A stretch of 38,659 nt of DNA from a virus, in IMG/VR virus record IMGVR_UViG_3300037587_000525, positions 1 through 38,659 of that record; one strand, given 5' to 3'. Both the position numbers and the translations under genes were made by a program. A model generated the notes under the pieces. It was not told the DNA's origin. It saw only the letters and a program-made list of their open reading frames with translations, and did not search any database. Of the stretch, positions 21,592 through 25,935 are shown in pieces; position 1 is the stretch's first letter; each line of letters begins with the position of its first letter.

Positions 21592-21749
21592 CTAACCAGC
21601 CGCCACCAAACAGACCCACGCACCTCGACAGCAACGGCCATCGGATCAATCCTAGTGGCGTCGTGGTAGAGCTCAAGAAGGCGGACCCTGACGTTGCTAA
21701 TGATTGGCTGAGAAAGATCAAAGAATCGCTAAAGGAGAATAAATCATGA
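21588..21749 (+). CDS. Small hypothetical protein (53 aa)
   Basis: ATG at 21588 overlaps the preceding stop as ATGA, and its own stop overlaps the rtcB start as ATGA, so it is coupled on both sides. The product has a Pro/Asn-rich N-terminus and a helical end (NDWLRKIKESLKENK). Unknown function; tight coupling to rtcB is the main reason to call it. Confidence 0.6.
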   Translation: MTNQPPPNRPTHLDSNGHRINPSGVVVELKKADPDVANDWLRKIKESLKENKS

Positions 21750-22960
21750 AACAGACGAATATTTTTGCTGAGGTGCTAGAAGATACCGCACTGGAACAGT
21801 TCAACAGCGCGATGGAGCAGGACTTCGCGGTCAAGGGTGCACTGATGCCTGACGTTCACACCGGCTACTCACTGCCGATTGGTGCAGTGGTGGCGACCGA
21901 TGGCGTGATCGTGCCTGCTTGGGTCGGTTATGACATCGGCTGCGGCATGTGCGCGCTGAAGCTGGATGGTATTGATTACGATGAAGTGAAAGCCAATAGC
22001 AAGGCTATATTTGATCTGATCTATAAACACATCCCTGTAGGCTTCAATGTCAACGAGAAGGCTGTGGAATATAGTCTTGATGGACTGACAGATAAAGGCA
22101 AGGAAATTGCCGTGATGAAAAAGCATGGACGCGCCATAGGTTCTCTTGGAGGTGGTAATCATTTCATTGAAGTAGGCCATGACGAAACTGATAGTGTCTG
22201 GGTGGTCATTCACTCAGGAAGTCGCGGAGTTGGTCATGGACTAGCGGCACATTATATGACCATTGCATCCAGTGACACCAAAACATTAGAAGATGAATTT
22301 GATGTCGACCATCAGCATCTGCTCAAGTATAACCCCGGCCAATATGAAACCTATAAGTCAGAGTATGTAAAAAAGAAACAGGGAAAGTTACGTCCGAAAG
22401 AAGGGCACTACGGATTTGACGTAAATTCCCAAGACGGAATGGACTACATACAGGATCTGGCGTGGGGCTTGGACTTCGCATTAGCGAATCGAAAAGAGAT
22501 GATGGCGCGGGTTGTTAATTCAATCACCGAGGCTCTTGATATCTCATTCTATGAGCTGGATTTCTCTGAGCTGATTAACCGCAATCACAACCACGCCGAA
22601 GAACGTGACGGAGTGTGGATTCACCGCAAGGGGGCAACTCATGCTGAAGCTGGGATGATGGGGGTTATCCCCGGAAATATGCGTGACGGGTCATTCATCG
22701 TTCGAGGCAAAGGCAATCCTGATGCGTTGTGGTCAAGCGCTCATGGAGCTGGGCGCGTGATGGGTCGTAAGCAGGCTAAGCGGGAACTTGAAACTAGTGA
22801 TTTTGTGGAGACTATGAGTGGCATCACTGCAAAGGTTGGTGGCGATACTCTCGATGAGTCACCTCTGGCGTACAAGGATATATTTGAAGTGATGCGTCTC
22901 CAGGCTGATCTGGTTGAAGTTATCGCGCACGTAAAGCCGATCATCAATATAAAAGGGTAA
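21746..22960 (+). CDS. rtcB: RNA-splicing ligase RtcB
   Basis: 404 residues behind AAAGGAG. All RtcB motifs are present: MPDVHTGYSLPIG (34-46), GYDIGCGM with Cys66, GGGNHF with His139, HSGSRGVG (156-163), NRNHNH with His281 and His283 for metal, HRKGATHAEAG, and SSAHGAGR with His333 as the guanylylated residue. RtcB joins 2',3'-cyclic phosphate to 5'-hydroxyl RNA ends using GTP and Mn2+. In a phage the natural role would be repair of tRNAs or other RNAs cut by host anticodon nucleases or toxins. No archease (activator) gene is visible nearby. Confidence 0.95.
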   Translation: MKQTNIFAEVLEDTALEQFNSAMEQDFAVKGALMPDVHTGYSLPIGAVVATDGVIVPAWVGYDIGCGMCALKLDGIDYDEVKANSKAIFDLIYKHIPVGFNVNEKAVEYSLDGLTDKGKEIAVMKKHGRAIGSLGGGNHFIEVGHDETDSVWVVIHSGSRGVGHGLAAHYMTIASSDTKTLEDEFDVDHQHLLKYNPGQYETYKSEYVKKKQGKLRPKEGHYGFDVNSQDGMDYIQDLAWGLDFALANRKEMMARVVNSITEALDISFYELDFSELINRNHNHAEERDGVWIHRKGATHAEAGMMGVIPGNMRDGSFIVRGKGNPDALWSSAHGAGRVMGRKQAKRELETSDFVETMSGITAKVGGDTLDESPLAYKDIFEVMRLQADLVEVIAHVKPIINIKG

Positions 22961-23946: not shown

Positions 23947-24380
23947 CTGAATCGATGGTATCAGCTGGCCATTACAACGCGCTGAGGCTGGAAAGGGATC
24001 AGCTGGCTGCGAGGGTTGAAGAGCTTGAGCAGGCCGTATCTTATTCTCTCGATGTCGAAAATATCCCCGAATACCATGATGAAGGGATGGGCTGCGGTCT
24101 TGAGGACAGAGGAATAACCGACCGATACGAAGCAATGAGTTACGGGTGGGAGAAAGCCATGGATCGATTTTGCAGCGAGCTACTTCCTCCTGGTGACATC
24201 CTTGAAGTAGGCCCTCCTCAAAGCCTGCTGATCCACGACGCCGAGCTGTTCGAAAAAGCCGCAAAGGAATGGCTCCATGACGGGAACGCCTCGGCCATAT
24301 ATTCGGGTAAGAATGTGAATTATATCTTGAGCGTAAGGGCCAGAGAGCTCAGGAATGAAGCTGAGGGGAAAGACCGGTGA
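23943..24380 (+). CDS. Hypothetical protein (145 aa)
   Basis: Coupled on both sides (ATGA upstream, GTGA downstream). Residues 10-35 are a coiled-coil-like helix (NALRLERDQLAARVEELEQ), the middle is acidic, and the C-terminal part is helical. The N-terminal phrase is typical of phage ead/Ea22-like accessory proteins, but that is not a firm assignment. It directly precedes the cytosine methyltransferase. Confidence 0.55.
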   Translation: MTESMVSAGHYNALRLERDQLAARVEELEQAVSYSLDVENIPEYHDEGMGCGLEDRGITDRYEAMSYGWEKAMDRFCSELLPPGDILEVGPPQSLLIHDAELFEKAAKEWLHDGNASAIYSGKNVNYILSVRARELRNEAEGKDR

Positions 24381-25846
24381 GCGCTTATTATAATGAATTC
24401 GATCCGTATGCGGCTCAATGGCTGCGCAACCTTATCACAGCCGGTCACATAGCCCCTGGCGACGTAGACGAACGGAGTATTTCAGATGTCAGACCCGACG
24501 ACCTCAAAAATTACACCCAATGTCATTTCTTCGCGGGAATCGGCGTATGGTCCCTGGCACTCAGAAGAGCAGGATGGCCAGACGATTCTCCCGTTTGGAC
24601 CGGCTCCTGTCCTTGCCAACCTTTCAGCGCGGCAGGCAAAGGAGATGGGTTTACTGACGAGCGGCACCTATGGCCAGCATTCTTTCATCTCATCACGCAA
24701 TGTGGCCCTGATCGAATCTATGGTGAGCAGGTTGCAAGCAAAGACGGCCTCGGTTGGCTCGACCTTGTACAAGCTGACCTGGAAGGAGCGGGTTACTCCA
24801 GCGGGGCGATTGATTTGTGCGCTGCGGGCGTCGGTGCTCCGCACATCAGGCAGCGGCTCTGGTTTGTTGCTGAAAGGTTGGGCGACTTGTGCGGCCAGGG
24901 ACTACCGGAGCGAGTCAGCTACGGACGAGTTCAATGCAAAGCGATGGAGGCATGCCAGGGGGAAGCCGTTGTCGGCGGAAGCGACGTTAGCTGGGTGGAA
25001 CACTCCAGTAGTACGAGACCACAAGAACAGCTGTGGCAACGGAACAAATCCGAGAGACTTGCCGAGGCAGGCCTGGTTAGCGGGATGGGGAACCCCGACG
25101 GCGAACACCCCCGGCGGGACGCCAGAACAAGCCCTAGCGCGGAAGGAGAAAACGACAGCGGGGCAATCGGTGACCGCGTTAGCACATCAAGCTCAACTGG
25201 CGGGCCCGGCCCGACTAACGGCTTGTGGGCAGATGCTGACTGGCTCCACTGCAGAGATGGAAAGTGGAGGCCAGCTCAACCCGGCACATTCCCGCTGGCT
25301 CATGGGGCTGCCGCTAGAATGGTGTTTAATTGCGCCTGCTGCGAAACGGAGGTAATATCAAATCATGAATTGTGCTACGTGCGGAAAATCAATGGTCGGA
25401 ATGAAAGACGCGAGCCGGCGGAAATACTGCTCTCAATCCTGCATGGGAAAAGCCTACGTGGTGGATATCCCGAAGGACGGGAGGAAAAGGGCTCAGTATC
25501 TGATAAAAAAAATGAGGAAGTGCAACAGATGCGGTTCAACGGAGAATCTGCAACGTCATCACTGGGACGGAGACACCAAGAACAACGATCTATTGAACCT
25601 GGAAGTGCTCTGCCGGAAGTGTCACAGATCACACCACAAGACAATACCACTGGTTACGTGCGCAGTTTGCTCGAAAGAATTTTTAGCGCCCAGGAAGCGG
25701 AACAAGATTTGTTCTGTCCAGTGTGCGAAGGAGTGGGGGCGCATAAATGCGAGAAAGAGATGGGGAAAAGAGCAGGAATGCTGAAGGCCTACGGAAACTG
25801 TATCAACGTTGAAGCGGCTAAAACTTTCATCGAAGCAACTATTTAA
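24377..25846 (+). CDS. dcm: C5-cytosine DNA methyltransferase carrying an in-frame HNH-gene insertion
   Basis: 489 codons from GTG at 24377, behind GGGGAAAGACC. Motif I is [18 protein letters not shown] (50-67), the catalytic loop GSCPCQPFS has Cys80, motif VI reads GEQV instead of the usual ENV (116-119), and motif VIII is RQRLWFV (158-164). The TRD region ends with [18 protein letters not shown] and PLAHGAAAR. The last conserved block, [10 protein letters not shown] onward, is then found only at residue 466. Residues 315-465 are foreign, encoded by the insertion that carries the HNH gene in another frame. With them removed the protein is about 338 residues, a normal phage length. Whether the 489-residue form is active is unknown. 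Confidence 0.88.
24486..25355 (+). CDS. Overlapping +1-frame gene inside the cytosine methyltransferase (289 aa)
   Basis: ATG at 24486 has GGAG 8 nt upstream and runs 290 codons in the +1 frame relative to the methyltransferase. The protein has features I recognise from a family widespread in phages and proteobacteria: [17 protein letters not shown] near residue 36, GLLTSGTYG near 54, [14 protein letters not shown] near 91, repeated AGW-x-TP blocks ([16 protein letters not shown]) and [18 protein letters not shown] near the end. Function unknown. The HNH insertion replaces its natural C-terminus with a short ending ([10 protein letters not shown]). Both frames look constrained, so this appears to be dual coding. 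Confidence 0.65.
25319..25771 (+). mobile_element. HNH endonuclease insertion in the methyltransferase gene
   Basis: The methyltransferase sequence stops being homologous after GCC-GCT-AGA (25318) and resumes with GCA-GGA-ATG-CTG (25772). The stretch between is about 453 bp, a multiple of three. Edges are uncertain by several bases; a GAATG repeat at 25317 and 25776 gives the alternative 25322-25780 (459 bp). It carries one HNH gene with its own ribosome-binding site, whose stop codon uses the downstream host sequence. There is too little flanking sequence for a group I intron. Confidence 0.65.
25365..25784 (+). CDS. HNH homing-type endonuclease
   Basis: 139 residues; ATG at 25365 follows CGGAGG, 12 nt upstream. 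The HNH core is CNRCG (53-57), His65-His66, Asn73-Asn74, then LEVLCRKCH (79-87) with His90-His91. It is flanked by an N-terminal zinc finger (Cys3, Cys6, Cys22, Cys26) and a C-terminal one (Cys99, Cys102, Cys116, Cys120), typical DNA-binding additions of phage HNH enzymes. It lies in a frame different from both methyltransferase-region genes. Probable role: cutting uninserted alleles to spread itself. Confidence 0.85.
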   Translation: MNCATCGKSMVGMKDASRRKYCSQSCMGKAYVVDIPKDGRKRAQYLIKKMRKCNRCGSTENLQRHHWDGDTKNNDLLNLEVLCRKCHRSHHKTIPLVTCAVCSKEFLAPRKRNKICSVQCAKEWGRINARKRWGKEQEC

Positions 25847-25860
25847 TAAGCCATAAAAAA

Positions 25861-25887
25861 ACCGGCCTCCTCAGAAAGAAGGCCGGT
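25861..25887. terminator. Hairpin after the methyltransferase gene, T-tract on the minus strand
   Basis: ACCGGCCT and AGGCCGGT form a perfect 8-bp stem with an 11-nt loop. The six-base A run precedes it on the plus strand, so as an intrinsic terminator it works best for leftward transcripts. For the rightward operon it lacks a T-tract and may instead protect or partly terminate the mRNA. A six-codon GTG frame with the GGAAAGACC cassette (25914) follows. Confidence 0.6.
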
Positions 25888-25935
25888 AATTCAACACCCA
25901 AAGGAAAGACCAGTGACCATTCGAGTGGAGTAATC

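Follow-up and report, generated by a model that had tools for sequence, protein, structure and literature searches.

An HNH endonuclease gene nested out of frame in a phage C5 methyltransferase gene with an open host frame

The C5 cytosine DNA methyltransferase gene of a tailed phage contains a 453-bp insertion that carries an HNH endonuclease gene in the +1 frame, and the host frame runs through this insertion without a single stop codon. Our preferred interpretation, to which we assign a probability of about 80% on the basis of the sequence comparisons, is a frame-transparent homing-type element: the methyltransferase would be read through, the HNH protein would be translated from an internal start, and the element would home into empty alleles. 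The window, i.e., the whole stretch of DNA that was analyzed, is the single IMG/VR virus record IMGVR_UViG_3300037587_000525 (38,659 bases), whose portal, terminase, tape measure, RecT, and O/P-like replication genes mark it as a tailed phage. The phage also bears a gene for an RtcB-type RNA ligase (positions 21746 to 22960; phrog_1075, E = 5e-110).

The methyltransferase gene and its insertion site

The host open reading frame (ORF; 24377 to 25846, plus strand) has a GTG start, comprises 489 codons including the insert, and matches the DNA methyltransferase family phrog_363 (E = 3.8e-77) as well as the Pfam family DNA_methylase. The PCQ (C80), GEQV, IRQR, and YGN motifs are all intact, and with the catalytic PCQ and motifs VI, VIII, and X present, the protein classifies as a C5 enzyme. 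Directly 3' of its stop codon lies a terminator-like, GC-rich inverted repeat (25848 to 25912; ACCGGCCT...AGGCCGGT), which has a weak Rfam match below the cut-off on the opposite strand.

The insertion was mapped with an alignment of 27 sequences, i.e., the methyltransferase of the window and 26 relatives. The collinearity of the window protein with the relatives is interrupted after M315 and restored at G467, which divides the gene, all on the plus strand, into a 5' segment with residues 1 to 315 (24377 to 25321), the insertion with residues 316 to 466 (25322 to 25774), whose host-frame translation is referred to here as the shadow peptide, and a 3' segment with motif X (25775 to 25846). The element thus follows the target-recognition region and precedes motif X. 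The first-pass annotation had recognized the insertion itself but placed it 3 nt too far to the left, at 25319 to 25771; the break that it reported, from residue 314 to residue 466, is likewise real, with the correction that the ATG codon 315 belongs to the host and A466 to the insert. The ends remain ambiguous by 1 nt because a G is common to both. Nothing is present at the insertion point in 24 of the 26 aligned relatives, and the remaining two (L127 and L155) have other inserts close by; homologues in which these 151 residues form a native domain were looked for among these relatives and did not turn up. The length of 453 bp corresponds to exactly 151 codons, as had been noted before, and such divisibility by three has a one-in-three probability of arising by chance.

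The target stretch (CCGCTGGCTCATGGGGCT..CCGAGTGGGACG.CTGCGCGCCTACGG) is nearly invariant in about 60 relatives, synonymous sites included, and therefore represents a natural homing target. Two overlapping frames are also under simultaneous constraint here. The host gene contains a conserved ORF of 289 amino acids in its own +1 frame (24486 to 25355, plus strand; phrog_1008/phrog_31772), which had been omitted from the first-pass annotation. In 25 relatives (among L009 to L088), the phrog_1008 frame contains 10 stop codons versus 79.0 expected and is therefore a conserved overlapping gene; Escherichia coli phage K1H is annotated with both the methylase and a "Mte8-like" overlapping gene. This ORF predates the insertion, ends inside the insert, and shares the frame of the HNH gene. 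In two other loci (L119:2501-3016 and L127:3459-3947), the HNH ORF extends into the 3' flank, still in the +1 frame, and hence ends with the C terminus of phrog_1008 (DDCAVTAMPSSRK and CACAPTATQLTRK). The idea that the 5' end of the window insert restores the terminus of the overlapping ORF was discarded, since the similarity between this 5' end and the 3' flank did not exceed that of shuffled sequences.

The nested HNH gene and its translation

The nested gene (25365 to 25784, plus strand) encodes 139 amino acids in the +1 frame relative to the methyltransferase, and its best family is the HNH endonuclease phrog_1271 (E = 6e-16). It is complete, as had been proposed, with an N-terminal CxxC/CxxxC knuckle, the core CxxC-HH-N-N-CxxCH-HH, and a third zinc knuckle all intact, so that the HH...N...H signature is combined with CxxC zinc knuckles; the Pfam HNH score of 20.3 bits lies just below the cut-off of 21.4. 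Its stop codon is indeed borrowed from the host gene, the TGA at 25782 to 25784 being located in the 3' host flank. The predicted ribosome-binding site was also found, in the form of a Shine-Dalgarno (SD) sequence GGAGGT (25348 to 25353, plus strand) 11 nt before the ATG, a spacing that exceeds the optimum. Among the nested HNH starts, which we assigned ourselves and some of which are uncertain, 12 of 33 have an SD sequence of at least 5 nt at a workable distance, compared with 7.3% of background ATGs; many nested relatives are without a clear SD sequence. A second possibility for the window gene is coupling to the overlapping ORF, whose stop lies 9 nt upstream of the HNH ATG.

Phage introns often carry HNH genes, and the insert might accordingly be a self-splicing group I or group II intron with an HNH ORF, in which case the open host frame would be incidental. 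This explanation is very improbable, given that 420 of the 453 bp are coding, which leaves no space for a ribozyme core, that Rfam detected no intron family in the window, and that stop codons in the host frame would be of no consequence to an intron, yet none are present where about 250 would be expected across the family (see below). An unrecognized intein-like element, which would deliver a mature methyltransferase free of the 151 residues by protein splicing, would account for the open host frame, and other HNH domains do sit inside real inteins. We regard it as equally far-fetched, as no Hint or intein domain was found in the window protein (Pfam at E ≤ 1, NCBIfam at E ≤ 0.1), while the same libraries do detect inteins in locus L118. 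Splicing blocks and the C-terminal HN are absent, and the junction reads V...A|G, i.e., the insert starts with V and ends with A, and the +1 extein residue is G instead of C, S, or T.

Stop codons in the host frame and the fate of the enzyme

The statistical evidence for the frame-transparent element comes from a null model in which each HNH gene had its synonymous codons shuffled, so that protein sequence and codon usage were kept. Given the HNH protein and its codons, 5.0 stops are expected in the host frame of the window, and none is present (P = 0.0015), in agreement with the earlier statement that the host frame has no stop across the insert. In 32 nested HNH genes that remained after de-duplication at 90%, the host frame has 0 stops versus 249.7 expected, whereas the third frame of the same genes has 229 stops versus 204.0 expected, and the same frame of 44 nonredundant free-standing relatives has 595 versus 628.1. 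Locus L119 was left out of these counts because its HNH ORF runs beyond the host's own stop. Since nesting was scored by the absence of stops after similarity-based retrieval, the informative fact is the sharp split between nested genes with none and other genes with about the expected number.

Judged from these counts, selection and not luck keeps the host frame open, a result in favor of translation across the insert and against splicing of the RNA. The window insert is a singleton whose HNH has only about 40% identity to its nearest relatives, and the case for selection at this very locus therefore rests on the P value of 0.0015 together with the family. The dual reading, which the first-pass annotation had marked as inference, gains support from the contrast between the nested genes and the near-expectation controls, and both proteins are probably made from the one stretch.

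Constraint on the amino acids of the shadow peptide is another matter. When loci are compared against a stop-free permutation null, the excess of its amino-acid similarity is just a little larger in the host frame than in the non-host frame. Strong constraint was rejected, the signal being barely above this null and both alternative frames being lifted by residual shared ancestry. AlphaFold2 models the methyltransferase core of the window with confidence, but the insert has a pLDDT of about 28 to 54; in the L107 family the corresponding values are about 35 to 51, and motifs IX and X beyond the insert are modeled well. The idea of a folded shadow domain was rejected on these low values. The shadow peptide thus looks like a tolerated, mostly unstructured loop in the models, and since constraint is slight and no fold was predicted with confidence, the enzyme may be impaired by the insert.

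Phages can often dispense with their orphan methyltransferases, and a recent insertion could simply have broken the gene, the open frame in the window being due to chance without any selection. The singleton status of the insert, the displaced motif X, and the predicted disorder of the shadow peptide would all fit such an event. We nevertheless consider it unlikely in view of the P value of 0.0015 for the open frame, the lack of stops in all 32 nonredundant nested genes, and the intact methyltransferase motifs. Under the preferred reading of a frame-transparent element, a small zinc-binding HNH gene with an internal SD sequence would insert at a nucleotide-conserved site of a phage C5 methyltransferase and keep a second frame open, so that ribosomes could read the methyltransferase straight through. 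The product would be a presumably active methyltransferase enlarged by a loop of about 151 residues, and the HNH protein would be produced in the +1 frame by SD-led or coupled internal initiation. It would then presumably cut insert-free alleles, and the element would be copied in by repair.

The family of nested genes and its counterparts

Relatives were gathered by HNH similarity alone and not by nesting. Besides the window, 39 loci (40 with the window) have an HNH gene inside a C5 methyltransferase and in its +1 frame; they include dozens of IMG/VR contigs, Staphylococcus phage CUB-EPI_14, Komagataeibacter phage phiKX1 (L119), and the bacterial genome bin L122. The genome collection contributed one relative, in a Peptococcaceae MAG, and a search for plasmid relatives yielded none. 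Several sites and hosts are used: insertions are located just before motif IX (e.g., L095, L107, and CUB-EPI_14), between motifs IX and X (e.g., L089, L091, and L117), or before motif X in phrog_363-type hosts (the window, L119, L127, L143, L155, and L199). The window insert has no second copy in the collections searched. It is absent from the aligned relatives, and a comparable pattern is seen in staphylococcal phages, where CUB-EPI_14 has an insert and its relative IME-SA4 does not; this disjunct distribution is suggestive of homing.

A free-standing homing endonuclease gene within a coding sequence is known from mobE in nrdA of phage Aeh1, a genes-in-pieces insertion in which the host is split into two proteins. 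The window resembles this case in the landing of the gene and differs from it in the continuous host frame. A further counterpart is the DNA-cytosine methyltransferase of CUB-EPI_14 (ON325435.2), an open C5 frame of 601 codons with a strong SD sequence and an HNH gene in the +1 frame whose product is about 40% identical to that of the window. It differs in that the host belongs to another C5 methyltransferase family, the site is before motif IX, and the annotation lists the methyltransferase alone.

Out-of-frame HNH genes in phage methylases have been described as the ShiLan domain and the Pacc40 insertion (Arsenault, Gosselin, and Gogarten 2025; PMC11855218). In the passages devoted to these two cases, which are discussed in detail, the host frame is open, an intron or intein is undetectable, and no ribosome-binding site is reported; the text gives no stop-codon statistics. 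The window shares with ShiLan an HNH gene in a non-host frame of a phage DNA methylase, the open host frame, the conserved spot, and the undetectable intron or intein. Our reexamination of ShiLan revealed an amino-methyltransferase (DPPY) as host and an HNH gene in the third frame, in contrast to the C5 methyltransferases, +1 frame, zinc-finger HNH proteins, SD sequence, about 40 cases, and stop avoidance of the window family. The two HNH proteins are only remotely related (BLASTP E = 0.008 for a zinc-finger stretch; hhalign 69.6%), and neither the HNH subfamily nor the host methylase class is the same. A resemblance between the start of the insert and the 3' flank, as in ShiLan, was not seen in the window, where 111 of 500 shuffles scored as high. 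The window element is therefore a variant of the ShiLan kind and not the same element, i.e., a ShiLan-like arrangement in another methyltransferase class with a far larger family. A frame-keeping insertion, which the first-pass annotation had correctly described and called unusual, is thus recurrent, with about 40 C5 methyltransferase cases in addition to ShiLan and Pacc40.

A UDG-fused family A DNA polymerase (L139:1385-4255) and a DPPY-bearing amino-methyltransferase (L124:3083-4273) also contain HNH genes nested out of frame. Furthermore, inteins, mostly in terminase large subunits, were found in which the HNH gene and the splicing domain occupy different frames and the intein frame is open. 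With the host frame at +2 of the HNH gene (L118, L154, L160, L165, L169, and L195), 0 stops were counted versus 23.4 expected; at +1 (L153, L157, L158, L170, L192, L193, L194, L198, and L200), the count was 0 versus 18.1. In the published papers searched, no description of an out-of-frame endonuclease in an intein was found.

On balance, we lean toward the view that frame-transparent homing endonuclease genes form a distinct and widespread class of mobile elements without splicing, which would persist within coding sequences through the evolution of a second open frame, as would have happened repeatedly in C5 methyltransferases, DNA polymerase A, and an amino-methyltransferase, as well as out of frame inside terminase inteins. 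What was in 2025 a curiosity of two methylases becomes a large family with statistical evidence of selection on the host frame, and the internal SD sequence is offered as an answer to the question of how the hidden enzyme is produced. Besides introns and inteins, this would be a third route by which a selfish endonuclease may reside inside a gene that must survive, and the family supplies many natural overlapping genes for tests of dual coding.
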